Positions 14,477 to 63,010 of a DNA stretch of 64,000 nucleotides are shown piece by piece. The stretch is from positions 248,001 through 312,000 of the forward strand of contig NZ_NIZW01000001.1 in the NCBI RefSeq assembly GCF_002727185.1. Reading direction: 5' to 3'. Origin of the DNA: Rhodopirellula bahusiensis. Its GTDB lineage: Bacteria; Planctomycetota; Planctomycetia; Pirellulales; Pirellulaceae. The notes under the pieces were generated by a model. That model did not search any database and was not told the origin of the DNA. It saw only the letters and a list, made by a program, of their open reading frames with translations. Numbering within the stretch: the stretch's first letter is position 1; the number at the start of each line of letters is the position of its first letter. The position numbers and the translations under genes were made by a program.

Positions 14477-14508
14477 CGTTACGCCGACATACCACCACAG
14501 GACCAACC

Positions 14509-15720: not shown

Positions 15721-15819
15721 TCTCGTCTGCGCGAGCCCGGATGAGCCACCGGGCCCCAAAGACAGCTTTGCCTTCGAGGCGTTCAGGTTCGATCAGATCA
15801 TCGACGCTAGACCGTCTTC

Positions 15820-28934: not shown

Positions 28935-29935
28935 CGCCTGATTTGTGGCCAGACCGGCAGCTTCACCAAGCGACATCCAAATCGGTTCCAGTCGCAATGC
29001 GCAGAAACCAACATGACTTGAACTGCAGGCGCAGGGCACCAACAGATTGTTCATTGTTCGCGGAATCAAAACACCGTACGGAATTTGATAGGGCGCGACA
29101 CCCTTGTAGAACTCGCCCATGTGTCGTCCTCCGATCATCGGACCTTCGTGATCCGTGCCGTGACAATTATGGCTGTATTCTCCCACCGCGATCGCATCGT
29201 CGTGACGCTTCGCGCGAGCATCATTTGCCGCGTATTCGGTGTCGTTCTCTGTGTAGACGTATTTGCCAACCATACGGCGAGCTTCTCGAACGTAAATTTG
29301 CTCAGGGATGTTTCCCGACTCAGTAAACTCATCGCGACACAATCCCCAAGTCGCGGCCTCGGCTCGAAATGCGTCCGGTAGCGAGCCATCCGTTTGAGCG
29401 AAATGGATCAGTCCCAGTTGCCAATCAAGGTGTTCCCGTTCGATGCGTCGGCGCGTCGCGAGATCACCATTGGGATAATCCAGATGCTTTCCGGGCCTTG
29501 AAAGTCGAACGGCACCTTTGGAAACATCGTTGATGTCATGTTTGCCGTTAGGCATCACCGGCAGATGGGCCTTCAACAGAAACGGCTGTCCGGGATAGCC
29601 GAAAGCTGACTTGATGACACCTGATTCGACCAGCGGAATTACCCCAACATAGTCATTGCGGTTATAGTTTTGGGGAACGGGAATGGGAACTCGGTTGTCT
29701 TCCTTTTGCGTCATGCACAATCGAAAGTTGTAGCCTTGCAATTGACCATCGGCCGATTCGGAAGCCAATGATTCGTGGTATTCCGATCGTGCCTCGCGAC
29801 CGGTGCGGAATGGAATTCCTGCCGCTGCCATCATGTCGCCTTCGTATGTCGCGTCAATCACGATTTGCGGAGTCACTGTGAGCGTATCGCCGTTAGGATC
29901 TTCGCCGCGCCCGCGCCGAGACAGGCATACTGGTT
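28527..29935 (-). pseudogene. FAD-dependent oxidoreductase lacking the FAD-binding N-terminus
   Basis: From IVIDATYEGDMMAAAGIPFRTGREARSEYHESLA to the end, the protein aligns along its length with the middle and back of the intact oxidoreductase at 39359-41428 (FVDGSYEGDLMAAAGVDWTIGREG). The Rossmann GxGxxG motif and about 150 N-terminal residues are absent. Upstream of roughly 29935 the open frame goes on through unrelated sequence to 30113, overlapping the sulfatase, so no real start exists. The tail differs from the intact copy: instead of a golvesin-like domain it ends in about 110 residues rich in Trp and His (FVAVQWWGSVRGLHG). Without FAD binding it should be inactive. It lies 3' to the 799-residue sulfatase, a pairing common in planctomycete glycan loci. 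Confidence 0.7.
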
Positions 29936-30046
29936 CTCGCCCAGACGCTGATGCAGATCGACCGCCTTCAACAAAATTCCCTAAACGCAGACAAAACAAG
30001 CACTTAAAAGCCGCACGATCTCCTCGACCGTGAGGCTTCACGTCAA

Positions 30047-41428: not shown

Positions 41429-41637
41429 TTGCGTGGTTTGCCAATTGTTGAAAAATCAATCGAGTGTGTGCTGACAACAGTATAACGAACAGTGTGACAG
41501 GAACGAATCGCACAGCGGTCGTTGGGCGAGATCGGTTGCGCATCCGTTATTTTTGCGGTGTTGAGGGTCGCATTTTGTCAAATTGAAATGGTATCGCAAT
41601 TCCACATGGTCCGCTCTACCTATAAGATTCGCTCTAA

Positions 41638-42040
41638 CGTTGGTGCTCAAGGAACTTTGGTCAAGGAAGGCCCATGCCATCGGGAACGCGGGAATTTCCG
41701 AATCGCGTTTAGTTCGCCCCTCGCAGGCAGACGGTTCGTATGCTGCAGCGAGTTTCAACCGGCTGACTCTAACAGCCGGCGCTTGCGAACGCTGTACAGA
41801 ACGCGATTACTCTCCGTGATTCATTGATTCTGGCTGATTGACAATACCTACTGTTCTTATGATCTACAGTCGAAATGTTTTGCAGGAGTGCATCGTCTAG
41901 GGCGAGAATGATCTACAATTCCGAAACTACGCTGGCGCGCCATTGAGGGAGATGAGTTGGTGCCCCCCACATGATTTGCATCAAGACTTGATGTGAATTT
42001 GCCCGCACGATCTAAGATACGAGAACCCGCTCATGACCAC
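41638..42040 (+). repeat. Intergenic repeat, copy 2, leading into a sulfatase
   Basis: 41638-41861 and 41970-42040 match 25288-25511 and 25510-25580. The intervening 108 bases (41862-41969) are unique to this copy; they begin and later repeat ATGATCTACA. The right end covers the presumed promoter, the leader and the first codons of the sulfatase at 42033. I see no gene in the rest of 41429-42032. Confidence 0.8.
41976..41996. promoter_or_regulatory. Near-perfect palindrome before the sulfatase, putative operator
   Basis: TTGCATCAAG-A-CTTGATGTGA: the same dyad as 25516-25536 with two outer mismatches. It ends 36 bases before the start codon at 42033, a position where a dimeric repressor or activator could act. 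The regulator is not identified. Confidence 0.5.
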
Positions 42041-46447: not shown

Positions 46448-47461
46448 TCAGATTGAAATTCGCTCGACAAGGTTCCGAGTAACTCGTCGCTGCCGCCGAT
46501 CGTAGAGCCGGGTCGTTCTCGGGTCGGCATGGCCAGCCAGGTTCTGAACGTCCTCAAGTGGAACGCCTTGGCTAAGAAGGTCCGTGATCGTGGTCACGCG
46601 AAACGAATGCGGGGAGAGGCGGGGCGGCAGACCAGCGTCTTTCATGCGCCGCTTTACCATCCGAGCCATGTCGCCTGCGGACATTGGATTCTGCGTGAGC
46701 TTCTTGGTTTTTCGGATTGTCGTGCGAAACAGGGGCTTGGACTTGTCCGCGTATTCTGTTCCACCAGCTACGAGATAATCTCCGATGAAATGCTGTAAGT
46801 CATGACGAACTGGAATCTCACGTGACTTTCCGCCTTTCTCGCTGAACCTCAAGCAGTGCTGATCGCCAAGGTCGTAGAAGCTGTCGCGACGAAGTGAGGC
46901 AACCGCTCCGACACGGGCTGCCGTGTAGATCATGATGGCGATGATAGCACGATCCCGAAGCCCCACAACGTGGCTGGTGTCGAGTGATTGCATCAGCTTT
47001 CGAGCCTGTGCAACTGTAATTTCGGGTGTTTTGCCTTCGACAACCTGCAAGCGTACGCCACGAACCGAGTGTGCGGGGTTCAATAAGATGACGTGCCTTG
47101 TCACCAGCGTATCGAAGAAGTGACGGATGGCAGACAGATGCAGCTTCTTCGTCGCCGGTGCGTAGTCCTGTTCATCCAAGTAGCAGCCCACATCACGTGG
47201 CGACACGGTGGGAAGCTCTTTATTCAACGCCTCGCAGTGCGACAAGAACTTCCGTATCGCGTGCTCGTAGGCAGCTCGTGTGTGACGATTGCGAATCTTA
47301 CCGTAGATGAACTCTTCCCAAGCAAACCGGGCTGATGACCCGGCTTTCGCGATAAGAATCGGAAGAGAGCGGTCACTTGCCGCAACGACCATCGGCGTCT
47401 GACGGGCCTGCGGCATTCGTTCGGCTTTGAGAGCAATCGCTTTGCCAAGTAGTTTCTTCAC
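46448..47461 (-). CDS. Tyrosine recombinase/integrase
   Basis: 337 residues. The N-terminal core-binding SAM-like domain spans about 45-130 (FIYGKIRNRHTRAAYEHAIRKFL); the catalytic domain has R183 (TAARVGAVASLRR), K209 (SEKGGKSREIPV), H285-x-x-R288 (LSPHSFRVT), H311 (LAGHADPRTT) and the nucleophile Y320 (RLYDRR). All catalytic residues are present. There is no IntI-specific insert, so it is not an integron integrase; it resembles the XerC/D-like phage or island recombinases that are numerous in Pirellulaceae. It may be the enzyme that inserted the surrounding island; the tRNA-Asp scar at 60540 is 13 kb away, so the link is inference. Confidence 0.93.
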   Translation of the reverse strand: MKKLLGKAIALKAERMPQARQTPMVVAASDRSLPILIAKAGSSARFAWEEFIYGKIRNRHTRAAYEHAIRKFLSHCEALNKELPTVSPRDVGCYLDEQDYAPATKKLHLSAIRHFFDTLVTRHVILLNPAHSVRGVRLQVVEGKTPEITVAQARKLMQSLDTSHVVGLRDRAIIAIMIYTAARVGAVASLRRDSFYDLGDQHCLRFSEKGGKSREIPVRHDLQHFIGDYLVAGGTEYADKSKPLFRTTIRKTKKLTQNPMSAGDMARMVKRRMKDAGLPPRLSPHSFRVTTITDLLSQGVPLEDVQNLAGHADPRTTRLYDRRQRRVTRNLVERISI

Positions 47462-47623: not shown

Positions 47624-48838
47624 CTAGGCAACACATTGAAAGGCTCGCTCCATCACATTCGCCGCATGATTGGACACGAGAGATTTCGGTGTCGATATTC
47701 GGATGACTCCTTGGGGGTAGCTACTGAACGCAACGCCTCGCTCCCGGAACCGGTCTCCGAGTGCTAGGCAATCCGCTTCTCGATGCAGCGGGTCTTGCGA
47801 TTGGAGCAACATAATCCCGCTGCGAAGTGACTCATCAATGTCCAGCAAGTTCCAAGGCGTGCCGTCGACGCATTGCTCAACGGTATCGAGGTTCCGTTGC
47901 TGACGCTCGAGTTGTTCTCGCAGATGCTTGCGTTTCGTTCGTTCTTCGCGGATTGCCGCATTCACTGTGAAGAGTGGGGTGACATTTACGGTCTCCAAAT
48001 ACCGACTAACGGAGTTTCCGCCGATCTGCTGGCTGAATCTCAGCAAGGGATCTTCGAGTTCAGGACAATGTCCTGATTGAAGGATTTGGCGAAACTGCTC
48101 AGCGACGATAGGACGTCCGCAGATCGCTACGCCAAGTGGATTCCCGCCTCCGAGCCACTTATGACATCCTGTAATCGTCATATCAACGTGTTTCGTGGGT
48201 GATGGTTCAGGTAGCTGGCAAAAACTTTGAGCCGCATCAACGAGAACGAAACGGAGTCGACCGCTCGGTTTTAATCGTGAAAGGAGGTCGGAAATTGGCA
48301 GGCGAATTCCTAGATTGGTCACTGCCGGGAGGAAAATGCCATCGCAGTCTCGATCAAGAAATGCGGCGGCAAGCGTTTCTACGAGTGATTTAGCCGAGAG
48401 TCCTTTATCGAAAACCGCCGAATGGATTTCCGCGACCGACACTGCCTGACCACTTCGGGCAGCTTCATCGGCGACGACATGTTGCCAGTGTGGCCAATTC
48501 ATGTCGCAGGTCAGCACGTTACGGCACGCTCGAAACATGGTGCGAGAAGCTAGCCTCACAAGTTGAACTGATCGGCTCGCAAGAAAGACGTTCTCCGGAT
48601 CGGAAACCGAAAAGTGTTTGGCGAATTCACGTTGAAGCGACTGGAGCCCATGCCAATGCTGAAACGAAGGATATTGAGCAAGGCGTTCCTCTGGCCAGGC
48701 ATCAGCGCCATTTCTGAAGAGATTCTCGCAGTACAGCGACGGATCGTCGACCAGAAGCCGATTGACGTCGAGCTGAGCCTGAGATGCGGCCGCACACGTC
48801 CTGCCCAGCCTCGCGGTGTCTAAGTAAAGAACTGACAC
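47624..48838 (-). CDS. PLP-dependent aminotransferase class V-like enzyme
   Basis: 404 residues with the class V fold (kynureninase, cysteine desulfurase, isopenicillin-N-epimerase group). VLVDAAQSF gives the pyridine-N-binding D201; TGCHKWLGGGNPLG supplies the Schiff-base K227. The C-terminal domain is standard (GVAFSSYPQGVIRISTPKSLVSNHAANVMERAF). It lacks a signal peptide, so it is cytosolic. It stands between the recombinase and a membrane protein, with no clear operon partner. Which amino acid or sulfur compound it acts on cannot be told. Confidence 0.85.
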   Translation of the reverse strand: MSVLYLDTARLGRTCAAASQAQLDVNRLLVDDPSLYCENLFRNGADAWPEERLAQYPSFQHWHGLQSLQREFAKHFSVSDPENVFLASRSVQLVRLASRTMFRACRNVLTCDMNWPHWQHVVADEAARSGQAVSVAEIHSAVFDKGLSAKSLVETLAAAFLDRDCDGIFLPAVTNLGIRLPISDLLSRLKPSGRLRFVLVDAAQSFCQLPEPSPTKHVDMTITGCHKWLGGGNPLGVAICGRPIVAEQFRQILQSGHCPELEDPLLRFSQQIGGNSVSRYLETVNVTPLFTVNAAIREERTKRKHLREQLERQQRNLDTVEQCVDGTPWNLLDIDESLRSGIMLLQSQDPLHREADCLALGDRFRERGVAFSSYPQGVIRISTPKSLVSNHAANVMERAFQCVA

Positions 48839-48870: not shown

Positions 48871-49767
48871 CTACTCGCCCAGGCTGAAACGATCCAGTAT
48901 TTCCGCGTAAGGGGTCGCGTAGACGTTCAATTTGTTCCAGTTCGCCTCCGCAGCGCGAACAGAATCGAAATCGAAGTCCAGCGTGAACTTGCTCGTTCGA
49001 CGATCGGAATCGTCGAATTCCTGGGTTCCAGTGGCCGTGAAACCATAGATGCCGATGTCGCGTAGTAACTCCGGCTCGTCTAGCAAATCAGACTTCCGCA
49101 CCAGTCGAATATAGACTCCGTTGACCGATTGCTCGTGAATCCATTGCCTGAGCGTTTCCGTTGGCAGATCATCATCAGGTGGCCAAAGCTCATTCGTCAC
49201 GATGACGGTTCGCTCGATCGTGACGACGGAGCCGGCAATGAGGTCGAAGTTCAGTTGCATGCTCTGCAATCCAGCTCCGTCTTGCCAGTACGACGTGTTC
49301 TTTACCAGAGCAACCGACCGATAGACGAGCACGCTCGGATCACGCAGCAATTGTTCGTAAACAAGTCGCCAAGCCTCAGTGCCCTGGAAAACGATTTTGC
49401 CGTCGCCTATCTCGGTGAGTTTTTCCACAGCGACATCCAATTCACGCAGCGCCGACTTTCGGTAGTTGGGCTCAACCCGTCCGCTGACACGAAGCATCTG
49501 GCGCAATATCGCACGATAACGTTTGAACACTTCTGCGTCATGCGCGAGGAAAAACGGAGTCTCAAGCAGCGTGGGATCGCGAGATCTGTCTTCTCGTGAC
49601 CGTATAAGCAGCAGGCCCAAACAGAGGCTTGCAATTGTTCCAAAAAATGTCAGCGTTAGCACCCGTGAGTCCAACCACGCAATGCCCACCGACACCAGGC
49701 AGCCTGCAATGGCCACACCGGTGGGCAACCACCATTGAGAAGGTTTGATTTGAGCGGGTTTTTCCAT
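48871..49767 (-). CDS. Unknown membrane-anchored protein
   Basis: 298 residues from the ATG at 49767; the frame is open to 49872, but the earlier part lies close to the repeat at 49821 and lacks coding character. Two hydrophobic helices near the N-terminus (WWLPTGVAIAGCLVSVGIAWL and VLTLTFFGTIASLCLGLLLI) anchor it, followed by a large soluble domain (FKRYRAILRQMLRVSGR, RLVYEQLLRDPSVLVYRSVALVKNTSYWQDGAGLQSM, VNGVYIRLVRKSDLL). I recognise no family. The soluble part would face the cytoplasm if both helices span. It shares strand, but no overlap, with the PLP gene. Confidence 0.65.
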   Translation of the reverse strand: MEKPAQIKPSQWWLPTGVAIAGCLVSVGIAWLDSRVLTLTFFGTIASLCLGLLLIRSREDRSRDPTLLETPFFLAHDAEVFKRYRAILRQMLRVSGRVEPNYRKSALRELDVAVEKLTEIGDGKIVFQGTEAWRLVYEQLLRDPSVLVYRSVALVKNTSYWQDGAGLQSMQLNFDLIAGSVVTIERTVIVTNELWPPDDDLPTETLRQWIHEQSVNGVYIRLVRKSDLLDEPELLRDIGIYGFTATGTQEFDDSDRRTSKFTLDFDFDSVRAAEANWNKLNVYATPYAEILDRFSLGE

Positions 49768-49820
49768 GTGGCCAACCGTACGACAGTTTGCCACCGATGA
49801 CAAGCGTCGAAAGTAGCTGT

Positions 49821-49950
49821 GACCGGAAGCGCTCCGGAAACATGTGTCGTGGCTAGCGATGCCGGGTGGCATGGTGATTTCGACCGGACAGCCAGTCTGA
49901 ACCCACTCGTTAGATTCCAGTCGGTGAACCGGCTCAGATGATCAGGAATG
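49821..49950. repeat. 130-bp imperfect direct repeat, copy B
   Basis: Starts GACCGGAAGCG and ends AGGAATG; aligns along its length with 50364-50494 at about 65-70 percent. Best-kept parts: GACCGGAAGCG, GTGGCT, GATGCCGG, then CGTTAGATT(C/T)CAGT and CGGCTCA. With copy A it brackets a small minus-strand ORF. Confidence 0.65.
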
Positions 49951-51174: not shown

Positions 51175-51582
51175 TCAAATTTCCAAATCTGTCTTGCGAC
51201 AAATTGGGCAGTAACCAAGAAAGTTTTCAGACATTCCCGCAGGAACGTAATAAAAGTGCGACCAACCTGCGTTGATTGCCTGACCGACCGTTGACGGACC
51301 TTCGTTGTTGCAGGTTGCGCACGAAAGGGTGAAGGGAACCGTGCTAGGAATCCCGGCAGGATTGTCGAGCACTTCGTTGGACCGCTGCAAAGCAAATGTT
51401 GCCATTGCAGTAGCCAGGGTTCTATTCCAGTCAGCTCCAAGTCGGAGCGTGCCCATCGTCTCGGGTGCAAAGCCATCTTTTTTGAGCCAACCAAGAAGAG
51501 CTTCGGCTAGGTCAATTACTTCCAGCCAATTTCCGGCTGTCCATTCGGATAGCAGAGAATCCCAAGTTGCTTGCGAATCCAT
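51175..51582 (-). CDS. Hypothetical protein with zinc ribbon (135 aa)
   Basis: An N-terminal helical part (TWDSLLSEWTAGNWLEVIDLAEALLGWLKKDG) is followed by LSCATCNNEG and, 30 residues on, LGYCPICRKTDLEI. The two CxxC knuckles make a zinc ribbon at the C-terminal end. No signal peptide or membrane helix. The start codon lies two bases after the stop of the DUF932 gene, so it is probably co-transcribed with it. Function unknown; a role as a DNA- or RNA-binding accessory is possible. Confidence 0.7.
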   Translation of the reverse strand: MDSQATWDSLLSEWTAGNWLEVIDLAEALLGWLKKDGFAPETMGTLRLGADWNRTLATAMATFALQRSNEVLDNPAGIPSTVPFTLSCATCNNEGPSTVGQAINAGWSHFYYVPAGMSENFLGYCPICRKTDLEI

Positions 51583-51584
51583 GA

Positions 51585-52604
51585 CTAGGCCGCCAATGCG
51601 AGCAACTGACCAACTCTGGCATCCAACTCCGTACGGTCGCCCGCGTAGTTGACCTTCTGGCTCAGTTTTGTCAGAGCATCAACCATTGCGAAGATCGTGA
51701 ATCCGCCTCGCTGCCGGGCAATCTCCATCGCGTCTTTGATCAGACCACGAGGTATCTTTTCGGCAGACAGCACCTTCGTCACTTCTTCGTCATCACTGCC
51801 AAGTCGTTCGTTCATCGCCTTTTTCATTACCGTGGCGAACGAGTCGCGGCGTTCATCGCGGCTTGCGACCAGCCGTTCAAGGATACAGCGAATTTCATCA
51901 AGTCCGTCGCGGACGTTGGCTGTGTGCTTGCGGCTGAAGTCAACAACTTCGGTCGCATCCCAGACAATGTGGTTCTGGCAGACCTTCTGAAACCAGAAAG
52001 TCTGAATACCGAGCGAGCGTTTACCGACTTCGCTGTTCCAGACGAAAAAGCCTGGAGCGAATGCCTGGCCGTCGATTTCAGCCCAACCGGTCGGGTCGAT
52101 CATAAACGCGAACAAATCCTGTTCGCCACAGTAGAGCCCGGTACTTGTTCCATCCATCGCGGTTTGCGGCGGAGCGAAATCAGAAGCGAACTCGTTAACA
52201 ACATCCAGCAGATCCGCATTCCACAGTCGCGTGTAAGCGACGCCGTGCATGCTGCGAACGTCGCTACCCGTTGTCAGAACCTGCAACGGCTTTTCAGCAC
52301 GCGGCAGAGTTTCTTCAAACACCTTGCTGGCGGTTCGATGGGAAAGCTGATTGACGGTTTCCTTGCTAACACCGGCCATGCGGCACATCTGCGAGAATGA
52401 CCAGTCATTTAAGTGCAGTTCGTTTCCATCGCCGGTACACACCGTCATATCGTGTGTCAGCGTCAGATTCTGCGGACGTTCCCACAGATCCTCCGATTGC
52501 AACCGCTGTTTCGAGCAGTGTTCGTACAATTTGTCAAACGAATCGTAGGATTCATCTGGGGATCGTCGGAACAGTTCGTTGTGAGCCTTTGTCAGTGTGG
52601 CCAT
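51585..52604 (-). CDS. DUF932 (phage/plasmid-like) protein
   Basis: 339 residues from the ATG at 52604, chosen because GAGAGGAG lies just upstream; the frame is open to 52655. DUF932 signatures: LHLNDWSFSQMCRMAGVSKETVNQLSHRTA, then MHGVAYTRLWNADLLDVV, then GFFVWNSEVGKRSLGIQTFWFQKVCQNHIVWDA. DUF932 proteins are found on plasmids, phages and integrative elements and are thought to deal with single-stranded DNA or replication; their action is not proven. It heads a small left-running operon with the zinc-ribbon and 98-residue proteins, and marks this part of the window as mobile. Confidence 0.9.
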   Translation of the reverse strand: MATLTKAHNELFRRSPDESYDSFDKLYEHCSKQRLQSEDLWERPQNLTLTHDMTVCTGDGNELHLNDWSFSQMCRMAGVSKETVNQLSHRTASKVFEETLPRAEKPLQVLTTGSDVRSMHGVAYTRLWNADLLDVVNEFASDFAPPQTAMDGTSTGLYCGEQDLFAFMIDPTGWAEIDGQAFAPGFFVWNSEVGKRSLGIQTFWFQKVCQNHIVWDATEVVDFSRKHTANVRDGLDEIRCILERLVASRDERRDSFATVMKKAMNERLGSDDEEVTKVLSAEKIPRGLIKDAMEIARQRGGFTIFAMVDALTKLSQKVNYAGDRTELDARVGQLLALAA

Positions 52605-52840
52605 CTTGCAACTCCTCTCAGTATTGAAACGTGAATGCTCAACCAACGCAGCCAAGCGATCGTGTGCCTCAGTAAGACAAACGAACGCCTGGCTGGCTGT
52701 TCATGAAACGAGTCGCAGTAAAATTGTCAAAAACCTGTAAGACCACCGACCTCTCTCGACAACGCAAAAACGCTTTTGTCGCCATCGAGCGAGAGGTGGT
52801 ATCGGATTACCCATTTTGCAAATTGAAGGAACGTTTGAAA

Positions 52841-53158
52841 CTAGTAGTTCCATTCCCTATCACGGTTGTCGGGAATTGTCACATCAACCGGAAGTTGCGG
52901 TGGAACAGTGGAATCATCCAGAGACATTCGACCGACATCGGTTGCCAGATAATCCACCCATCGAAGCGCCGAAGTGGCGTTGCCTGAGCGTCGCAAACGC
53001 TCAATGAAAATCACGTGTTGAGGTTCGAGAACTGCCCAGAAACACTCAACATCTTCCCGAGATGCCCGGCGGATCAAGAACGGCAGGGCATGACTGGTTT
53101 CCAGGACTAGTTGCCTGAGTCCTTTTCTGTCAACGATGGCAATCCATGAATCATTCAT
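52841..53158 (-). CDS. Hypothetical protein (105 aa)
   Basis: Reads IAIVDRKGLRQLVLETSHALPFLIRRASREDVECFWAVLEPQHVIFIERLRRSGNATSALRWVDYLATDVGRM. No signal peptide, no membrane helix, no family that I recognise. The amphipathic alternation and third-base bias suggest a real coding gene. It lies 236 bases upstream of the DUF932 start on the same strand; that gap shows no gene. Confidence 0.55.
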   Translation of the reverse strand: MNDSWIAIVDRKGLRQLVLETSHALPFLIRRASREDVECFWAVLEPQHVIFIERLRRSGNATSALRWVDYLATDVGRMSLDDSTVPPQLPVDVTIPDNRDREWNY

Positions 53159-53351
53159 CGTCCATAGGTACCACGTTTCCGATCATCGAAGCAAACCGTT
53201 CGAGCCGAAAATTTCGACCGTCTGCCGGCGAGAGTCGAGCCGCGTAACGCAGTGCTTACCTTCGACTCACGGCCCCAAGCCTCTGTTGCGTTCACAACCG
53301 AAATTGTTTCTCGGAAACAGAACATTCGATATTGAGGCCGCTTTCCTCGGA

Positions 53352-53398
53352 GCCGGTCATCGTTGGGTTCACGCGGCCCCGCCCCAACGATGACCGGC
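53352..53398. repeat. 16-bp perfect inverted repeat
   Basis: Arms GCCGGTCATCGTTGGG (53352-53367) and CCCAACGATGACCGGC (53383-53398) with a GC-rich 15-base loop. It lies between the end of the 954-residue gene and the 105-residue gene, both on the minus strand. There is no T-run, so it is not a standard terminator. The rest of 53159-53494 shows no gene. Confidence 0.75.
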
Positions 53399-53494
53399 GC
53401 AGAGGCAAGCGGCTATCGCGACAACAACGTTCCGAGATCAGCTTTCAACCGTTTTCCTTGGAGAGTGTCAGAAGTTTGGGTTCGTCGACGATGG

Positions 53495-56359
53495 CTATCG
53501 ACTGGCTGCTGCCACAGCCAAACCGCAGAAAACTGCCGCTCGGTCGACCTGCGACCCCATTGAATCAGTCCATTCAAGGAGTTCCTGCACGGACTCGGAA
53601 CTGCCTTTCCGGCGGGCTTCAGCGATGGCAGCCCACGCCTTAGTGCGATAAAAGGATTGTGATGACGAAATTCTCTGAGCGTGACCGATGGCCTTTTCCA
53701 ATTGCCCGTTAGCAGCCAGCGAGACGGCAAGTTGGCTGCGAGGACGGCTGGCATCGCCGAACCAAAGAAGCGTTCCGCGAACAAGATTAGATTCCGCGAG
53801 TGCGAACTCGCCTGCCAAAGCATCGGAAGTCGCTAATGCAAGTTTCATTTCCGGGCCAGCACTTCCTCGGGCGATCAGACTTTGTGCTGACCTTCTGGCA
53901 TCGCGGTACGACTCGATATTGCCGCGTTCGGCGTGGAGAATGGCGAGTTCCGAAAACGCCCGAGCGGGATACATTCGATCCGAAGACGAATTGCCTCGCT
54001 TTTGCGACTTTTCAGTCAGCTCAGCAATTAGCTGTTCAAGATTGGGGATATCCTTTGACCACGCGGCAACCATTGCGCGGCTGTATCGGTAGAAATGATG
54101 GTTCGCCAACGGGAGTGACTCCGATCCCACACCTGTGGCACCTTGAAGCCTGTTGAGCAAGGCTTTCATTCGCAGAAAGTTATCGTCGTTGAATGTTGCG
54201 GTTGAAGATCGAAAGCCTGCCGCGTTAGCCCAATTGAGTAGTGTCTCCATTGCACCACGCGAGTCGCCAAAATCTGTTTGCATCTCCGCTAGATGACGAT
54301 AGCAGTCAATGATTCCTGCAATCATGCGTTCTTCCTGTTTGCGATGTCGGTCGCTGGTGTCAATGTAACCACCATTGTACGACCTCTTTACCGGCGGACG
54401 CTGGCTCCAAACCTCAGTCCAAGCATCAAATAGATTGTCGTTCAAATTGCTGACTGCTTGCTCGTAGCGACCTGTCTTATCGAGCAATTGCGATGTGCGG
54501 GCGATCACCAGCCAAGCAGACGCAGCATCTAAGGATTGTTGTACTCGATATGCCGATTGCTCGGCTTCGTCCAACAGAGAATTGACATCTTCGACGTCAA
54601 TGGTTGAGGAAAGCGGCAGGCGATTGCCGAAGTCATTAGCGACAATCTTCGTGCCCGCTGTGCGTGCAATCCCGGCAAACGCGGCGGCTCGCATCGAGGC
54701 AGATGGAAGCAAGGTTGACCACTCAGCGATAGATAAAAGGCTCTCACCTGTACGAACTCGGTGTTCTGCGTAGGAAGCACACGCGGGGGACGCCCACCGC
54801 TGTTCGGAAAATTGTTCAAACAGCTTCTGAAGATTTTCTAACGGGACATCCTGTGGAGCGTGCCTCATGACGCGAAACAGGTACGACGCTCGGAGATACG
54901 GATCGGGGACGTTGTTGGCAACAACTATCGCCGCCCTCCATCGCCGTTGGAGGATATTGGCTTCGGCGAGGCGAGTCGTATACAAGTATTCCGGGAAATC
55001 ATAAATTCGCCGTGGTGCGAAAGTGTTCTCGGTCAGCAACATTGCCTTAAAGAATTGGGGCTGATCGTTACGCCTTGCTGCCGCAATCGCCGCATGACCA
55101 TAGGCGTTCGCAGTGATGAGAGGTTTCGGATAGCGCAGTTTTTCCATCTTCGCACAAATGGCAAAGACTGCCTCTGGCGGTTCAGTCCACGAGGCAGTCC
55201 GGGCTTCCTGTGTTAGCGTTTCTTTCTGCCAGACGCTGCCCATCTCAGTTCTGTCGACCGATGCAACCGAACGACGAAAAAGGCTTGCTGCTTCAGTATC
55301 CAGACCAAATGTTTTTGACAGTCCCGAGAGGTTGGCGAGGTAGTTGCTGCTCACTCGTTTGTTTGACACCTGCTCACACATTTCAGCCGCATCAGCGATT
55401 AACTCTCGCGATAGTGAACGATCAAACGACGGGTGTTGGCAGATTTCAAAAATTGATTCAACGACTCGTTCCGGCTTGGTCATGCGAGGAAGAGCTTCGA
55501 TGGCCTGTCGCATAGCCTCGCGAGCTTCGGGGCCGTTGCCGACTAGTTGCCAAGCCGATGCGATCGGCAACCACCCCTCAGAGAATCCAGAATCATCTGG
55601 AGCTGCCGCCTTTAATTCACCTGACGCCATCGACAGCCAATTGTCGTGAGTCAATCTTTTTAGAGACCGTTCCAAATCGCTGAGCCGTGGATGTTCCGGA
55701 TGAGAAACAGAAAAGTCGACGAGGGCGGACAGGATTTCACTCGCATCCTTGCCTCGAATTTCTTCACGGAAATTCGCATAGGTGAAGTCGGATTCGATGG
55801 TGACAAGCAGGTCAATCGCTTGCTGTGCATCCTTTGAGGCAATGCTTGGATTGTTCGTTTTAAACGCTGATGCAGCGAGCGTTTGAATTCGTTTCCAGGT
55901 TTGATCTCCTTCCTTCGCGAGGCTGGCTCTGTTGTCTTTGAGCTTCTCTATTAGTGCTCTGAGGATTGATCGCTTTCGTTCCAGGGCACGAAGAACCGCC
56001 GGGTTGTACTGCTTAGCCTTGGGGGTGACCATGGAAAACACATTGGGAGCCGGCTCATTTGGTTTTTCTTGCTCTTCCAAATCTGTCGTTGCCGTATTTT
56101 GATCGTTGTCCGAATTCTCTGTATGAGGCGGCATTGCAAAGACAGACGTTTTGTCTAAAAGTGTTTGTGTGCCGACCACGGGTTCCTTCGGCTCATCAGC
56201 AAAAGCGGCGTTACCGACTAAACCAGCTCCGTTGAAAAGGAAGGTTCGAGGAGAGCCGTATGCGACCAGTAAAATCATGACGATGACGTAGACTCGCCAT
56301 CGGCTCCAAAGGCGTTGTCGTTCATTCGATTTCACAGCACCGTTGCTTCTATTTGTCAT
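53495..56359 (-). CDS. 954-aa unknown membrane-anchored helical-repeat protein
   Basis: One N-terminal membrane helix (WRVYVIVMILLVAYGSPRTFLF, about 22-43) acts as anchor or signal, followed by an acidic, Pro-rich stretch and a long alpha-solenoid of TPR-like pairs (WLPIASAWQLVGNGPEAREAMRQAIEALP, then AYGHAAIAAARRNDQPQFFKAMLLTEN, ELAILHAERGNIESYRDARRSAQSL, LAVSLAANGQLEKAIGHAQRI). No catalytic motif is visible, so it is probably a scaffold outside the membrane. It is the last gene of a four-gene operon and starts 18 bases after the preceding stop. Confidence 0.75.
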   Translation of the reverse strand: MTNRSNGAVKSNERQRLWSRWRVYVIVMILLVAYGSPRTFLFNGAGLVGNAAFADEPKEPVVGTQTLLDKTSVFAMPPHTENSDNDQNTATTDLEEQEKPNEPAPNVFSMVTPKAKQYNPAVLRALERKRSILRALIEKLKDNRASLAKEGDQTWKRIQTLAASAFKTNNPSIASKDAQQAIDLLVTIESDFTYANFREEIRGKDASEILSALVDFSVSHPEHPRLSDLERSLKRLTHDNWLSMASGELKAAAPDDSGFSEGWLPIASAWQLVGNGPEAREAMRQAIEALPRMTKPERVVESIFEICQHPSFDRSLSRELIADAAEMCEQVSNKRVSSNYLANLSGLSKTFGLDTEAASLFRRSVASVDRTEMGSVWQKETLTQEARTASWTEPPEAVFAICAKMEKLRYPKPLITANAYGHAAIAAARRNDQPQFFKAMLLTENTFAPRRIYDFPEYLYTTRLAEANILQRRWRAAIVVANNVPDPYLRASYLFRVMRHAPQDVPLENLQKLFEQFSEQRWASPACASYAEHRVRTGESLLSIAEWSTLLPSASMRAAAFAGIARTAGTKIVANDFGNRLPLSSTIDVEDVNSLLDEAEQSAYRVQQSLDAASAWLVIARTSQLLDKTGRYEQAVSNLNDNLFDAWTEVWSQRPPVKRSYNGGYIDTSDRHRKQEERMIAGIIDCYRHLAEMQTDFGDSRGAMETLLNWANAAGFRSSTATFNDDNFLRMKALLNRLQGATGVGSESLPLANHHFYRYSRAMVAAWSKDIPNLEQLIAELTEKSQKRGNSSSDRMYPARAFSELAILHAERGNIESYRDARRSAQSLIARGSAGPEMKLALATSDALAGEFALAESNLVRGTLLWFGDASRPRSQLAVSLAANGQLEKAIGHAQRISSSQSFYRTKAWAAIAEARRKGSSESVQELLEWTDSMGSQVDRAAVFCGLAVAAASR

Positions 56360-56377
56360 GTTGCATTTCGAATTGAT

Positions 56378-57427
56378 CTAAGGAGATAGCAATTGTTGTT
56401 CGACCATCGCTTGACCATGATCGCGAAGGAGCTGCTGGGCGCGTTCAAGAGGCTGTCTTACCTCAGGACGATTCAGTCTTTGGGACGCGTATTCGGGAAA
56501 CGAACCAAGTGGTCTTGTATTGTTAGTTCCGCGAGCCTTAATGCCGCCGAATATGTAAAGGTTTTCAAGCCCTTTCAAATTGTAATCCAATGCTCCCAAG
56601 CGTTTCAAACGAGATAGCGAAACCGGTTTGGCTTCAGCGGTACGCGTGTTGTCCCACGGATTGCTGTCGCTATTGGGCTGCCGATAACCGGGCGAGGTGA
56701 ATGGAACCAAATATTTCTGCACGTCAGGCATCTCGCGACGCAGTGCTTCCGCCCTCGCTGTTTTTGCTTTGAACTTTTCTTGTTCCCGTTGCGTTTGTTC
56801 TATTTCAACCCTCAGACGCTTGGCGTGGTCTTGCTGGTCTCGCAATCCGAGTCGAACTGGGCGGATTGCCTTGTCTTTCTCCCGCCGCACGTTTTGTTCA
56901 GTTTGTGTGCGTGTCCGTCGAATCGCTTCAATCTCAGCCATTCGACGCGATTGGGCTTTGGAATTCATGGCTTCGCCGACTCCATCAACATTGATGGTAG
57001 GCGGCTTCGACAAACGACTCAGAATCGCCGCTTTCCCAGCAAGTTCATTGAGCAGCATTTGAATCTCGGCTTCAGCGTCGGGAGACAATTCCTCGCCGTC
57101 GAGCGTTTGAACAACGGAGTTCAAACGCTGGCGTATTCTCGCGACTTCACGTGACTCAGCTTGCGGAAGTGACTCTGTGACCGCATCGACACTCGGCCCC
57201 CAGTCTTTTGGACCATCATCAGTTCGCTGCTTTGAGTTATCGACAACGGTTGTCTCGTCTCGCTTAACTGGATCAATCGGTTTCGGCTGGAACGGAAATA
57301 TGTCTGGATTCGCAATCCATGCTGTACCAACGAAGGCTGACGCAGCGACGACTAAAAACACTGCCGTGGAAAGCAAGTGTCGACCAAGTTCGGCGTCTGA
57401 TCTTTGGTACGGTGATAGGTTTGCCAT
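56378..57427 (-). CDS. 349-aa membrane/coiled-coil protein, paralog of its neighbour
   Basis: N-terminal transmembrane helix (LLSTAVFLVVAASAFVGTAWI, about 17-37), a charged linker, then a long coiled coil (about 155-235, RRTRTQTEQNVRREKDKAIR to EKFKAKTARAEALRREMPDVQ). The C-terminal 110 residues (VPFTSPGYRQP, then KPVSLSRLKRLGALDYNLKGLENLYIFGG, then TRPLGSFP, ending QQLLSP) align with those of the 432-residue protein upstream. I know no name for this domain. It lies six bases after that gene. Confidence 0.75.
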   Translation of the reverse strand: MANLSPYQRSDAELGRHLLSTAVFLVVAASAFVGTAWIANPDIFPFQPKPIDPVKRDETTVVDNSKQRTDDGPKDWGPSVDAVTESLPQAESREVARIRQRLNSVVQTLDGEELSPDAEAEIQMLLNELAGKAAILSRLSKPPTINVDGVGEAMNSKAQSRRMAEIEAIRRTRTQTEQNVRREKDKAIRPVRLGLRDQQDHAKRLRVEIEQTQREQEKFKAKTARAEALRREMPDVQKYLVPFTSPGYRQPNSDSNPWDNTRTAEAKPVSLSRLKRLGALDYNLKGLENLYIFGGIKARGTNNTRPLGSFPEYASQRLNRPEVRQPLERAQQLLRDHGQAMVEQQLLSP

Positions 57428-57433
57428 AAGAAA

Positions 57434-58732
57434 TTAGGGGGCGAGCAAGCCATCTTCGATTAGAAATGAACCGTACTTGCAAAGCAGCTCTTGTGCTTCC
57501 TCAACGCGAGCGGCAATATTTGGGTTGCCAAGTTCGGAGATTGAGTTCATCCGCGGAAATGTTCCAAGTGGACGGTCATTTTGCTGAGTCGCTGACTTTG
57601 AACCGCCGACACGGAATAATATCGGAAGCCCTTTTTTAGCCTCCAGTGCGCCGATACGTTCAAGTGCTGAGTACGAAACTGGCTGTTTGGTGTCGTGAAA
57701 GACAAGTTTGTCAGCCGTCTCTGGTTGGACGTATCCGGGAGTCGTAAAGGCGGTGAGAACAGCGCGAATGCGATCAAACTCATCACGGTACTCCTGCCGC
57801 GTTGCCAGCGGGATCGCTGGTTCGTCGCTATCCGTTGTAGCCAAAGCTTCGCCACTCTGAACACTTTTTAGTTGTGCAGTTAGCTGTTCAACCAAATCAA
57901 CCGCTTTCTCGTGCTGCGTTTCGAGTCGCTCGAGTTCTTCATTGAGCATGGTTTCAGTATCACGTTTCACCTTCTCGGCAATCGCTTCCAGCTTGCTGCT
58001 GACCGTGGCAGGACGTCTTGAGATTGCCATAGACAGTTTGTATGGACTTGGAACCAGTGATTGTGCAGAGTCACGAAGTATTTTCAGTTGATCGGTACGG
58101 GCCTGCCGCAAGTTAAAGAGCAACACGGCGCGTTCGCTCGCTTTCTCAAAGGCTTCCGCTACGGACCTCAGCGAATCCGCATCCTCCATATTCACATTTT
58201 TTGCGAGGTCATCGACCGCGAAAGCGAGATCCGAGGCAGTCATCTTTGACTCAATTGGCAACGGCATCTCGCGCAGTGCAATGAAACGCAACAGCAGTTC
58301 ATCACTACCAGCAATCTGTCTTCCCGCTGAATCGTGGAGGGTTGCGTCAAGAAGCGTCGACCACTCTTGCTCCGCAGACTCAAGGTGACGCAAACTCTGT
58401 TTTGCTTGAGCGAGACCGATGTCGAAGGACGCCTTCTGCAATTGAAGTCTGATACCCACAACGTTCGCATCGACTTCCCCTGCAATCAGTTCAGTCTCAT
58501 CTGGAGGTGGAACCGGATCGGGCGGAGGCATTTGCCGCCCGTGCAAGAGAAGAGCAACGGCACCGATACCGACAGGAATCACTAGCAACAGAATTGGAAC
58601 GAGTGCAGTCGAAAGCCACCAGTGATGCTTTTCCCGCTGGCGTCGCTGCTCAACCGAAAGCGTAGGGGTTGAGGATTCATTCGTGGCACTGACATCAGCC
58701 GACACTTGACTCGTCCAACTCCGTAGCTGCAC
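57434..58732 (-). CDS. 432-aa membrane/coiled-coil protein with the shared C-terminal domain
   Basis: Membrane helix at about 38-62 (LSTALVPILLLVIPVGIGAVALLL) after a polar, cytosolic N-terminus; then a helical region and coiled coil (about 250-300, LEAIAEKVKRDTETMLNEELERLETQHEKAVDLVEQL). The end (TAFTTPGYVQPETADKLVFHD, then QPVSYSALERIGALEAKKGLPILFRVGG, then DRPLGTFP, ending DGLLAP) matches the neighbour at 56378. Its start overlaps the upstream membrane gene by 38 bases, strong evidence of joint translation. The topology puts the conserved domain outside the cytoplasm. Function unknown. Confidence 0.75.
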   Translation of the reverse strand: MQLRSWTSQVSADVSATNESSTPTLSVEQRRQREKHHWWLSTALVPILLLVIPVGIGAVALLLHGRQMPPPDPVPPPDETELIAGEVDANVVGIRLQLQKASFDIGLAQAKQSLRHLESAEQEWSTLLDATLHDSAGRQIAGSDELLLRFIALREMPLPIESKMTASDLAFAVDDLAKNVNMEDADSLRSVAEAFEKASERAVLLFNLRQARTDQLKILRDSAQSLVPSPYKLSMAISRRPATVSSKLEAIAEKVKRDTETMLNEELERLETQHEKAVDLVEQLTAQLKSVQSGEALATTDSDEPAIPLATRQEYRDEFDRIRAVLTAFTTPGYVQPETADKLVFHDTKQPVSYSALERIGALEAKKGLPILFRVGGSKSATQQNDRPLGTFPRMNSISELGNPNIAARVEEAQELLCKYGSFLIEDGLLAP

Positions 58733-60143
58733 GGTGAGCTTTCAATGCCGTTGCTGCGACGATAGCGGCGATTGCACCGATGACGAATGCAGGAAGAGAC
58801 CAATACAAGATACTGAAGACAAATCCTTGGATGGCAAACACCGAGGCACCAATCAAAGCGGAATGAAGCAAGACCGATTTTGCCGAAACCACGCTATTTG
58901 CGATCGACGCCAAGTGGGCGGCGTTTCCGGCGAAACCCATCGCAGCCAAACCAAGCAGAATTCCAAGCGAGGTTAGCGTTGCGATTGCAGGGGCAGAAAC
59001 TGCAACGACTGCAACTGCTAGCGTGGCCAAGCCGTAAGAAAGAATGTGATTGATTAATGCGGCACTTGCAGCTTTCTTCCGAGCTGCTGCAATCCGTGTG
59101 TCCAGTTGCCGATTCTCTTCAGCCTTGATGGTGTCTTCGCCCCAACCCGCAAGGACGTAGGGGCCAATTAAAACCGCTGGGTCACGACGGACGCGTTCGA
59201 TGACCTTTTCAGCACTCCGTGTTTCGGTGAGCAAATCCCATTCGATGCATTCGTGGCGGAACAGTTCGCCTTCAAGAACACGTAGTTGCCCATGAAGCCA
59301 GTCAGGGCAGGATTCGATTAACTCGTTGTATTTCGTCGGAAGTGGATGAACGGTAGCACTCGGCTCATTCAAAGTTGGTTGGCGAACGTGATGCACGTGC
59401 TGGGCTTGTCGGTGCTGAATTTCGTAGTCAGAAACTTGGAGCGTCTCAACGAGGTAACTATCTTGGAACATTCGCCGGCCCGACTCATCTACGACCCGTT
59501 CACGGGTTCTCGTTTCTGCCAGCTCGACAACGGCAACGCGACGAAAGTAGGTGAAGCGGCAAGTTGTCGATGCCTCTTGAATCTGACCAATTAAATGCTC
59601 TTGCTGAAGAGAGTCGAAGAGTGCCAACACATCGTTCGCAAACCTCAAGCAGGCTTCTTCGAGACGAAGTCGCCCCTCAGCCCACGCTTCGGCGGGCGAT
59701 AAATCTGCGTACTTGAAGTCAACGAACGAGCGACTGGGAGTTGGGTAGCGAACCTGCTCAACCATCTGCCTTTCGATTTCAGCAGCTAACTCGCCATGCA
59801 ATTCAGCCGTCAACTCATCGCCACGAAACTCGATCGCCGCTTTTGCAATTGCCGGGACGAAGTCGTTTAGCTCGCGATACCATTCCTGAATCTGCGAGGT
59901 GCTCGTCGTGACGATCCGAATCGTGTGTTCGATACCACGGTCACCCGAAGCTGCACCGGCTCGGGAGAATGGGAGTCGAGACCACAATTCACTGGCCAAA
60001 TCAATCGCCTGACGTGGCTTCGACAATTCGTCGAACGTGAGGGTCGCACGGTCAAAACGCGAAACGTCAGTTTTCGCGTGATCCAATTCCGAAGCAACAC
60101 GATTGACTGTCGGCGACGACTGCTCGCCAGCAAGTTTGACCAT
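58695..60143 (-). CDS. 482-aa polytopic membrane protein of the unknown operon
   Basis: The first 340 residues are soluble and largely helical (TIRIVTTSTSQIQEWYRELNDFVPAIAKAAIEFRGDELTAELHGELAAEIERQMVEQVRYP); RTRERVVDESGRRMFQDSYLVETLQVSDYEIQHRQAQHVHH looks like beta structure. Then come about four hydrophobic helices (GLATLAVAVVAVSAPAIATLTSLGILLGLAAMGFAG, then FSILYWSLPAFVIGAIAAIVAATAL). There are no known motifs, no Walker A. It is the first gene of the operon; the promoter should be in 60144-60539, which shows no gene of its own. Confidence 0.75.
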   Translation of the reverse strand: MVKLAGEQSSPTVNRVASELDHAKTDVSRFDRATLTFDELSKPRQAIDLASELWSRLPFSRAGAASGDRGIEHTIRIVTTSTSQIQEWYRELNDFVPAIAKAAIEFRGDELTAELHGELAAEIERQMVEQVRYPTPSRSFVDFKYADLSPAEAWAEGRLRLEEACLRFANDVLALFDSLQQEHLIGQIQEASTTCRFTYFRRVAVVELAETRTRERVVDESGRRMFQDSYLVETLQVSDYEIQHRQAQHVHHVRQPTLNEPSATVHPLPTKYNELIESCPDWLHGQLRVLEGELFRHECIEWDLLTETRSAEKVIERVRRDPAVLIGPYVLAGWGEDTIKAEENRQLDTRIAAARKKAASAALINHILSYGLATLAVAVVAVSAPAIATLTSLGILLGLAAMGFAGNAAHLASIANSVVSAKSVLLHSALIGASVFAIQGFVFSILYWSLPAFVIGAIAAIVAATALKAHRAATELDESSVG

Positions 60144-60539: not shown

Positions 60540-60586
60540 CCGGACTGTCGATCCGGAGGTTGCGGGTTCGAGTCCCGTCCGCGTCG
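60540..60586 (+). tRNA. 3' half of tRNA-Asp(GTC), probable attachment-site scar
   Basis: The bases fold as tRNA positions 27-73: anticodon stem CCGGA/TCCGG with loop CTGTCGA (anticodon GTC, 60547-60549), variable loop AGGTT, T arm GCGGG-TTCGAGT-CCCGT, acceptor strand CCGCGTC and discriminator G. The 5' half should begin GACGCGG and carry a D arm; neither is found upstream. A good terminator follows at 60595. This is what remains when an element integrates at the anticodon stem-loop of a tRNA gene. It cannot make a tRNA. Confidence 0.65.
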
Positions 60587-60594
60587 CTTTTAAG

Positions 60595-60817: not shown

Positions 60818-63010
60818 TCAACGATCCACTGTTGCGACCGGATTGGAAAGGAATTCCTCGGGGACGGACTCGGGCCAATCGCCCTTCATCACGACGTTTT
60901 GAACCGTCGCTGGTGAACTGCGACGGGATCGGTACAGTCCGAACTGAGTTCCGGCGTTGGATTCGAGATCTCGTTCGTAGACGAGTTCCTCATTGAGGTG
61001 CACAAGAACCTTTCCATCGGCCAGTCCAACACGGACGTCGTTCAACTCATTGCGTTTCAATGGGATAGATCGCGGGCCTCGGCGACTGAGTGGTTCCAGT
61101 GCAGTATTGTCCATTGGCAACGTCGTCCAGTCATTGCTTCCGGTGGTCAGCCAGCGAACTCGCATGCCGGTTGGCTCCAGCAAAAATGCCATGCGTCCAA
61201 TTGCGGGATGCACGATCGAGTCGTCTTCGCCAAGCTGAAATTGATACGAGATTGACTCCCCGTCTAACAATGGTCGTTGATACTGCAACAGGCCGGGATG
61301 TTCGGCCTCGGTTGGATCCGACTTTGCACTGCCGATGAGCGTGCCTGACTGGACCTTCCAGTCGATCTCGGCCGATTCAGGTTCGATGTCCGCGGCCCCA
61401 AATGCAACCGCCCCGTCGGGTAGAGTTTTGCGGAACGGCGGCTGGGACTCATCGTAAAAACTGGATTGCCACCCGCGAAGCTCATTCCCGGCAATCAAGT
61501 CGACCTGTTTGGGAATGATGGGCTCACCAGTGAGTGTTAGGTTGCGGAACACGGGCCGCTTGGTGCCGGAACTGCGAAGACCAATCCATGGACTCATTCG
61601 CGCCGCTTCGCGGTCAAACCAGATCGGATGCAAATTGGATTCGAATTGGCTGGAGTCCTTCGTCGAGCGAATGGAAACGCGATTAAAAACCGGTTGGGCG
61701 GCAGTTCGCGCGAACGGTGACATTTGATCGGATCGATGCTGCGCGTCGGCGTCCCAGACCGAAAGCGTGGTGTTGCGGCCTGTGGCTTGGAATTGAATCC
61801 CGCCGTAAACCAGCCCGCCATCGGTGCCGATTGAACCACCAGATTGAGTCTCGCAAACAAAATCAAACTGACCAACCAACGGGAATCGACACAACAAAAC
61901 GTCCGCGGTCCCTCCTGCCATGTGCAACACATGTCGCTCGTGCGTCAGCCACATGCCTCGCGAGTGCCCGCGCTGAATGTCCTTCGATGTTCGAACCGTT
62001 GCCGGGACCCAGAACTTCATTTGATTCTGAAACAAAACGTCGGGCGGCGACTCCCCGCGATGACACTGAACGGCAATTGCGTGTGCAATTCGAAGAAATG
62101 GACGCATTCCAATCGACCGATCGTCCACCGCTCGATCAACCAAGGTCGCCAAGTAGGCTTCCGCCGCCGCTTGAGTGGAATCGTGCTGCATCGCAGCGGC
62201 AGCGATCGCGGCGACGGTGATATCACGAGACGTCAGTGGCGTGGCTTCGGTTGGCAGGTCAGCTTGGGCGTTCAAGAACGACGTTGCCATCTCCAGGTTT
62301 CCGCGGGCTCCCAACAATTGTGACAGCACCAACAACTCCTCCGCACCGGAAACGTTTTGCTCCCGAAGCTCTTCCAACGCGATTCGCAATCTTGGCAAGC
62401 GTCCGAGGTCATTCGCAGCTTGCAACAGCATCCATCCACTGCAAAAGAAGCCTTTGACGGGACCGACCGAAGCAACCGCAAATGTATTGTCTCGCGGCCG
62501 TTCGCCAATCGATCGAGCAAAGACTTTAGGCGGAGCGTCCGTTGGTAACGGCGTCGATAGAACTCGCACTCGTTTGCGTTGCTCCGTCGGGAGTGTCCAC
62601 TCCTCCAGCAGTTCGTACTGCTGATCACTACTCAACTGGCCCATCGAACGATTCAAAGCGGCCGCGGCCGATGGCAAGTCGCTGTAGATCAGATCGGAGA
62701 TCGCCAAACCACCCACTGCGTCCAGCTCTCGTAGTGCCGTCTCCGGATCGCGGTCTCGCAGCGCGGGCAACACGAGTGCAGTGTAAGACGGCTTTGCCTT
62801 CGCAACCGTCGTCGCCCCAAAGGCATCCGACAAACGTGTCAGGCTGTCTTGCGCCGCACAGTTGGATGCGTTTTGAGTCAACCAAAGCGTCGCCAAGCTA
62901 ACGAGCGTGATTGCAATCGATCGACATGGAATCTTGCTTTGCAGAAGAAGCTTTTTCGAATTCATTTTGAGATCGTGATGCGAGTCATGAATCATGGCGT
63001 GAAGTTTCAA
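60818..63010 (-). CDS. DUF1583-type secreted planctomycete protein (730 aa)
   Basis: A TTG at 63010 overlaps the upstream stop, but the ATG at 62965 gives a better signal peptide (SIAITLVSLATLWLTQNASNCAAQ). The N-terminal half is helical (SWMLLQAANDLGRLPRLRIALEELREQ) and the middle part lectin-like (FDFVCETQSGGSIGTDGGLVYGGIQF). The end is the DUF1583 domain: LLQYQRPLLDGESISYQFQLG, HPAIGRMAFLLEPTGMRVRWLTTG, LEPLSRRGPRSIPLKRNELNDVRVGL and GDWPESVPEEFL. These proteins are secreted and confined to Planctomycetes; function unknown. It lies outside the island, beside the tRNA terminator. Confidence 0.85.
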   Translation of the reverse strand: MKLHAMIHDSHHDLKMNSKKLLLQSKIPCRSIAITLVSLATLWLTQNASNCAAQDSLTRLSDAFGATTVAKAKPSYTALVLPALRDRDPETALRELDAVGGLAISDLIYSDLPSAAAALNRSMGQLSSDQQYELLEEWTLPTEQRKRVRVLSTPLPTDAPPKVFARSIGERPRDNTFAVASVGPVKGFFCSGWMLLQAANDLGRLPRLRIALEELREQNVSGAEELLVLSQLLGARGNLEMATSFLNAQADLPTEATPLTSRDITVAAIAAAAMQHDSTQAAAEAYLATLVDRAVDDRSIGMRPFLRIAHAIAVQCHRGESPPDVLFQNQMKFWVPATVRTSKDIQRGHSRGMWLTHERHVLHMAGGTADVLLCRFPLVGQFDFVCETQSGGSIGTDGGLVYGGIQFQATGRNTTLSVWDADAQHRSDQMSPFARTAAQPVFNRVSIRSTKDSSQFESNLHPIWFDREAARMSPWIGLRSSGTKRPVFRNLTLTGEPIIPKQVDLIAGNELRGWQSSFYDESQPPFRKTLPDGAVAFGAADIEPESAEIDWKVQSGTLIGSAKSDPTEAEHPGLLQYQRPLLDGESISYQFQLGEDDSIVHPAIGRMAFLLEPTGMRVRWLTTGSNDWTTLPMDNTALEPLSRRGPRSIPLKRNELNDVRVGLADGKVLVHLNEELVYERDLESNAGTQFGLYRSRRSSPATVQNVVMKGDWPESVPEEFLSNPVATVDR

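Follow-up and report, generated by a model that had tools for sequence, protein, structure and literature searches.

What are four adjacent genes for membrane proteins, here named A to D, doing at the end of a genomic island of the planctomycete Rhodopirellula bahusiensis? The genes lie in a 64,000-nucleotide stretch of DNA, the window of this work (G000:C1:248001-312000, G000 being the genome of R. bahusiensis itself), and had been described from the sequence alone in an initial annotation. It is near certain that the operon is part of a mobile element. As to its role, we lean towards the reading that protein B, together with A and in this element also C and D, is an envelope-facing, exchangeable module linked to a type IV coupling protein (T4CP) in a Planctomycetota element for which we infer transfer. 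The operon is composed of the following features:

58695-60143, minus strand: gene A, 482 amino acids (aa), a helical and beta-rich N-terminal part followed by four C-terminal hydrophobic helices
57434-58732, minus strand: gene B, 432 aa, short N-terminus, one transmembrane (TM) segment, long helical stalk and C-terminal domain; family seen beside T4CPs
57434-57808, minus strand: C-terminal domain of B, residues 309-432
56378-57427, minus strand: gene C, 349 aa, a shorter duplicate of B, confined among the loci read to four A-B-C-D loci
56378-56719, minus strand: C-terminal domain of C, residues 237-349
53495-56359, minus strand: gene D, 954 aa, an N-terminal TM segment followed by a probable helical-repeat solenoid

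The layout is as first described, with four open reading frames (ORFs) on the minus strand, an overlap of 38 bases between A and B, and gaps of 6 bases between B and C and 18 bases between C and D. When A, B, C and D are compared with their counterparts in strain K23_9 (CP036526, G636), which we take to be Stieleria marina of the Pirellulaceae, most differences fall at third codon positions in all four, which is the behaviour of real genes.

Linkage of the B family to a coupling protein

The C-terminal domain of B was searched for with protein C as query, giving matches in 10 of 98 relatives, and with a profile of the domain, giving matches in 19 of 396 Pirellulales genomes and, at the level of the phylum, in 4 of 392; G000 is included in all three figures. 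The union of the searches comprises 28 loci in 25 genomes, and the surroundings of every locus were read. A T4CP is found within 5.6 kb of the B domain at twenty loci. At ten of them B is the next gene downstream of the T4CP on the same strand, with gaps ranging from -160 to +68 bases (longest ORFs) and an overlap at five. At two further loci B follows the T4CP by 1.2 and 2.7 kb, at six B is upstream of the T4CP, on its strand and at a distance of about 5 kb, and at two near-identical loci (contig C8 of G000, and the congener G002) the T4CP is on the opposite strand, 5.1 kb from B. The remainder are the four A-B-C-D loci and four loci without a clear T4CP, to which we return below.

The assignment of the ATPase is based on the TraM-recognition domain PF12696, above its cut-off in all three members scanned, and on a match of a sixteen-row T4CP profile to DotL/IcmO in the PDB (E 2.7e-7). 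The P-loop reads GDSGSGKT in the element of the window, with variants elsewhere; a strict Walker A pattern fits 9 of the 16 rows. A simple scan finds 4 to 9 hydrophobic segments across the whole protein. At one locus (L106) the T4CP is apparently split over two ORFs, the second match being marginal. Locus L108 (G507, 9566-17219) combines a B-domain gene with two P-loop proteins in its vicinity, one of 941 aa and one of 909 aa, of which the latter matches the T4CP profile marginally (E 0.027).

The association is also seen between genomes. Among the nineteen searched, a strong T4CP match is present in 6 of the 8 with B and in 1 of the 11 without a B match, where absence rests for ten of the eleven on the protein C query and for some also on the domain profile. 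The two B-bearing genomes lacking a strong match are G006 and G046, the latter 72% complete, and the exception on the other side, G510, carries A and a T4CP in two ORFs. Weak partial T4CP matches occur in G003 and G012. It appears somewhat more probable than not that B acts with the T4CP in transfer.

Distribution of the four genes

The same gene order, A-B-C-D followed by a DUF932 gene, is present in four genomes (G000, K23_9, G006 and G046), in support of the initial annotation. Downstream of DUF932, G000, K23_9 and G006 share an ORF of the 135-aa type, a protein with two TM segments, an aminotransferase-like protein and a recombinase, with an extra 686-aa ORF within this series in G006; on the 16-kb contig of G046 the aminotransferase and two-TM homologues are on the opposite side of A. 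Protein identities of the window to G006 and G046, respectively, are 75 and 73% for DUF932, 43 and 30% for A, 34 and 48% for B (the value for G046 covering the C-terminal third only), 35 and 31% for C, and 43 and 33% for D. Genes found unlinked elsewhere would have spoken against the initial annotation, and in part this is seen: some loci have A and B but lack C and D, and some have B but lack A; in the four genomes named the linkage is kept. D is clear in only two of the 396 Pirellulales genomes (G000 and K23_9), with a weak partial match in a third, and is also found in G006 and G046. A view of C and D as parts of a core system was dropped, as they are seen only in four loci, apart from that one weak partial match to D.

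Recurrent neighbours of the B loci are pairs of winged-helix-like genes, kinase-family proteins (Pkinase in 3 of 3 scanned), ArdC-N, ParA, ParB and MT-A70. The proteins of a further neighbour family are about 335-506 aa long and show a CPRAG-like motif; the label 'Cas4', suggested by the likeness of the motif, is supported neither by Pfam nor by the PDB and was discarded. Kinase-family genes lie beside or around the gene with this motif (about 345-501 aa) at L022, L026, L069-L073 and L113. Ten large proteins chosen from other loci were helicases, an ORC-CDC6-like ATPase, a protease or metabolic-type proteins, or gave no match.

The integrated element

The operon forms the right end of an element of about 100.5 kb inserted in the 3' end of a tRNA-Asp gene and flanked by a 48-bp repeat. 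The tRNA scar noticed at first is real, its 48 bases being the 3' end of the intact tRNA-Asp gene; the island is real as well, and it reaches far past the four genes beside the scar. The right attachment (att) site and the conserved genes next to the operon are the following:

60540-60587, plus strand: right att site, repeating the last 48 bp of tRNA-Asp; its partner, the intact tRNA-Asp, is at G000:C1:208007-208054, outside the window
51585-52655, minus strand: DUF932 gene (PF06067, 24.9 bits against a cut-off of 23), the next conserved gene of the element
51175-51582, minus strand: conserved 135-aa ORF
48871-49872, minus strand: conserved protein with two hydrophobic segments, no Pfam match
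47624-48838, minus strand: class-V aminotransferase-like protein (PF00266, 24.9 bits against a cut-off of 21.5)
46448-47461, minus strand: tyrosine recombinase (PF00589, E 1.1e-24)

A 30-base pattern taken from the att repeat occurs, with up to one mismatch, in only two places in G000. In G002, which has one such place, the site is empty: sequences matching the left flank (at 83-84% identity) and the right flank (at 75%) directly adjoin each other. Integration is documented by the repeat, the empty site and two tyrosine recombinases. One of the recombinase genes begins within the element at 0.2 kb from the left att site, the other lies 13 kb from the right one. ParA, ParB, ArdC-N and MT-A70 are encoded in the same element. 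From the left att site it is 5.8 kb to the T4CP gene (213816-216500 of the contig, minus strand), and from the right one 0.4 kb to A (ending at 308143, minus strand). In K23_9 the att repeat bounds a 119-kb stretch with the mirror-image layout, in which the T4CP and A-B-C-D again lie at opposite att ends. Circularisation would therefore bring the T4CP and A-B-C-D together over the att junction, on the same strand. In G006 the 3' end of another tRNA bounds 172 kb on both sides.

A more compact element (L069) has the order ParA, ParB, two-TM protein, aminotransferase, ArdC, A, B, kinase genes, CPRAG-motif gene, a small gene, winged-helix pair and T4CP. In G000 the two-TM, aminotransferase and A-B genes are absent from the places they occupy in L069 and present at the far end. 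G006 keeps MT-A70, one winged-helix gene and, at the place of the integrase, a 417-aa ORF, with ArdC directly next. The cargo differs: inside the island of the window are what we take to be sulfatase-like and FAD-dependent oxidoreductase-like genes (28527-32446 and 39359-44171), with transposase-like ORFs between, whereas on the recombinase side G006 and K23_9 (L116 and L117) presumably carry Cus-type metal-efflux genes in place of sulfatase-like cargo.

Just outside the element the window encodes a DUF1583_N/DUF1581 protein (60818-63010). The tRNA-Asp 3' end is present in two or three copies, 21-36 kb apart on one contig, in G004, G007, G003 and G010, and judging from such sequences tRNA-Asp looks like an integration hotspot in the genus. 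The G000 genome has three T4CPs, and its region C8:62000-223454 holds a second att-bounded stretch (146 kb) with a further T4CP block just outside.

Proteins A to D

A was taken to be polytopic and the other three single-pass, and this is borne out by four hydrophobic segments in A and one each in B, C and D, the latter with an N-terminal TM segment and the bulk of the protein behind it. The proposed helical repeat of D has a weak basis, a TPR_2 match of 21.4 bits against a cut-off of 27. None of the four proteins reached a curated cut-off in Pfam or NCBIfam, and PADLOC returned no match for any of them at E up to 1; the only match in PHROGs is a weak one to protein C. HrmK, SPAM and SesA were rejected as identities since the matches were weak and none was over the cut-off, and a known defence system was likewise dropped for want of a match. 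Pfam scans gave no match for eleven A proteins and, for 27 B/C proteins, matches of single members only, of which a J-domain alone was strong. Searches with B in plasmid and phage collections, and of the PDB with the domain profile, gave no match.

The domain shared by B and C, which had been taken as a sign of duplication, is 39% identical over 122 aligned residues (E 1e-20). In a domain tree the four B and four C proteins fall together (support 87/94, an open fork), in accordance with a common origin; the four B form a clade (100/99), as do three of the four C (96/95), C of G046 being unplaced. Within B the C-terminal domain is best conserved with respect to G006 and G046 (0.55 and 0.52) and the stalk poorly (0.23 and 0.17), while with respect to K23_9 the first 42 residues are best kept (0.86).

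The structural model of B (mean predicted local distance difference test score, pLDDT, 86.8; predicted template modelling score, pTM, 0.47) shows a TM helix, a long helical stalk and a compact C-terminal domain of helices and two strands. That of A (pLDDT 76.9, pTM 0.60) has a helical part, a beta-rich part and four C-terminal helices. A Foldseek search of viral models (BFVD) with B gave nothing at E up to 0.001. One hydrophobic segment close to the N-terminus is present in all 27 B/C proteins, and the net charge is more positive before it than after it in seventeen, with five ties and five reversed. The homologue at L106 (7983-9485) has a J-domain ahead of the TM segment (PF00226, 1e-23); a J-domain is expected to be cytosolic, which would make the C-terminal domain periplasmic. 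B is therefore likely to be oriented with the N-terminus inside and the C-terminus outside, as predicted from these sequence features. The outward-facing conserved domain of the initial annotation is retained in this sense for B; for C of the window, one of the five reversed cases, the charge balance points the other way.

A divergent block within a conserved element

Divergence was computed gene by gene for one pair of elements, those of G000 and K23_9, over 24 genes (the aminotransferase pair, 94% identical, was left out). Fifteen of these are 92-99.6% identical in protein, with 0.05-0.24 substitutions per synonymous site (dS), except for MT-A70 (0.41) and DUF932 (0.46, protein identity 93%). 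Two winged-helix copies are 91.5 and 88% identical. B is 57% identical (dS 1.37), C 53% (dS not computable) and D 60% (dS 1.46); the search for the four-gene order gave 56, 51 and 58% for the same three proteins. At the nucleotide level most of the three genes falls into a single block:

52600-58600, no strand: divergent block, most of B, C and D; in 300-base steps inside these genes, nucleotide identity with K23_9 is 53-79%

The flank at 48.1-52.6 kb is 82-97% identical, and the intergenic step 53201-53500 (207 aligned bases) 82%. At about 52,600, close to where DUF932 starts, identity drops from 92% to 56%; across A it recovers gradually. The high dS suggests that a diverged allele has been swapped in, and that rapid amino-acid change by itself would not be the whole cause. 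Divergence of B-C-D amid near-identical genes would be expected if this part interacted with a variable extracellular partner.

Comparison with known transfer systems

Integrative and conjugative elements (ICEs) are typically inserted in tRNA 3' ends between flanking repeats and carry a tyrosine recombinase, a T4CP, partition and anti-restriction genes and cargo. All of these are shared by the present element, the T4CP being identified by PF12696 above cut-off and by the DotL match. Unlike ICEs, it has no VirB4 ATPase as far as PF03135 can detect one and no canonical relaxase in the proteins scanned, and it has the membrane proteins A to D. PF03135, the only VirB4 model run and one which misses some VirB4 types, matched in none of 19 genomes and in 1 of 14 controls. 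The region bounded by the att sites holds 76 ORFs with 110 aa or more, and at E up to 10 the T4CP profile picks out the T4CP alone; the profile was used since the strict Walker A scan is a weak test for ATPases, missing 7 of the 16 T4CPs. Replic_Relax was matched, at E up to 0.01, by 5 of 21 winged-helix-like neighbours.

VirD4 has two N-terminal TM segments. The ATPase of the element resembles VirD4, TraG and DotL in its PF12696 domain, P-loop and DotL match, and differs in the number of hydrophobic segments of its T4CP family given above. VirB4 is described as the signature subunit of all type IV secretion systems (T4SSs) known to date in a 2025 review (PMC12857230), in whose parts consulted here planctomycetes are not mentioned. 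According to the same source, PAPI-1 of Pseudomonas aeruginosa is an island with few T4SS homologues, VirD4 among them, and in this it is like the present element; PAPI-1, however, has a VirB4, not found here by PF03135, and needs a type IV pilus. The trees of traG and eex from SXT/R391 ICEs fall into two groups that match the exclusion groups, as far as the consulted part of PMC2791158 goes, so that envelope genes in diverged groups within a conserved ICE core have a precedent; no sequence or fold match was seen between these and A to D, which are four genes and larger.

Interpretation

The statement that the operon could not be tied to a known defence, secretion or division system stands in so far as PADLOC has no match; the T4CP link, the whole element and the cassette-like divergence had been missed. 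In the mechanism we propose, B would be anchored in the inner membrane near the T4CP, its stalk would span the periplasm and the C-terminal domain would be the working head. A would be the inner-membrane partner, and C and D may have joined the periplasmic assembly later. The T4CP would be the motor, and A to D would help the DNA to leave the donor.

Several observations weigh against this reading. No clear T4CP is present in the stretch read at 4 of the 28 loci (L075, L076, L108 and L110, the last a 6-kb contig), and G006 (99% complete) has A-B-C-D and yet no T4CP match. In the element of the window, only circularisation would bring B close to the T4CP. Between G000 and K23_9 the T4CP is 97% identical and B 57%, and a difference of this kind speaks against tight co-evolution of the two. 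Divergence also occurs outside B-C-D, in the recombinase (69%, dS not computable), the middle CPRAG-motif gene (76%, dS 0.69), A (78%, 0.64) and the 135-aa ORF (81%, 0.65). It is not universal for B either, since a 16-kb stretch including B is 97.6% identical between G000 and G002. A relaxase of a canonical family was not seen in the island, of whose proteins a part was scanned. Finally, Foldseek found no transfer-protein fold, A and B being without a PDB match at E up to 0.001 (best E 0.16 and 0.28), which is no proof of a different fold.

The divergence could also be explained if A-B-C-D acted in the envelope of the cell holding the element to block or sort related incoming elements, the alleles diverging by exclusion group. 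B-C-D indeed diverge far more than the bulk of the element, the change being abrupt and falling close to the DUF932 start, and the traG and eex trees consulted in part (PMC2791158) follow exclusion groups. But the per-gene comparison covers a single pair of elements, G000 and G002 show no such divergence, and B stands beside most T4CPs of this kind, as a core gene would. Eex proteins are also much smaller than A to D. For these reasons we regard exclusion as unlikely. Slightly lower still we place the case of an integrative and mobilizable element (IME), which would bring its own T4CP, adapted by A to D to a mating channel borrowed from a helper. The missing PF03135 in all 19 genomes and the T4CP as the only match to its profile in the island would fit, and an IME with its own coupling protein TcpA is tabulated in the part consulted of PMC5704250. 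The same hosts, however, have no PF03135 helper either, although helpers may be missed as the model does not cover every VirB4 type. That A to D are cargo, protecting the element or the host with no relation to transfer, is very unlikely. C and D are indeed confined to four loci (plus the weak partial match to D), a fast-changing block fits an arms race, and the elements also carry kinase-family genes and the CPRAG-motif family; against this, PADLOC is silent at E up to 1, and B follows directly on the T4CP at ten loci, overlapping it at five. Our preference thus remains with B as a T4CP-linked module of a transfer element.

As no VirB4 was found, the element may be an undescribed DNA-transfer apparatus or depend on a helper. 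A bolder proposal, which we make tentatively and hold to be possible rather than probable, is that the DNA-transfer machine of Planctomycetota would consist of one coupling ATPase and a B-family stalk, with A and sometimes C and D, without VirB4 or a known mating-pair complex, its outward part being a swappable specificity cassette. Among the papers listed for planctomycetes together with conjugation, secretion, coupling proteins, VirB4 or genomic islands, none concerns a Planctomycetota conjugation system, judging from titles and abstract openings. A T4CP element lacking VirB4 would be either a simpler kind of transfer machine or a sign of a missing helper, both of which are testable, and protein families that so far have no role would be given one.

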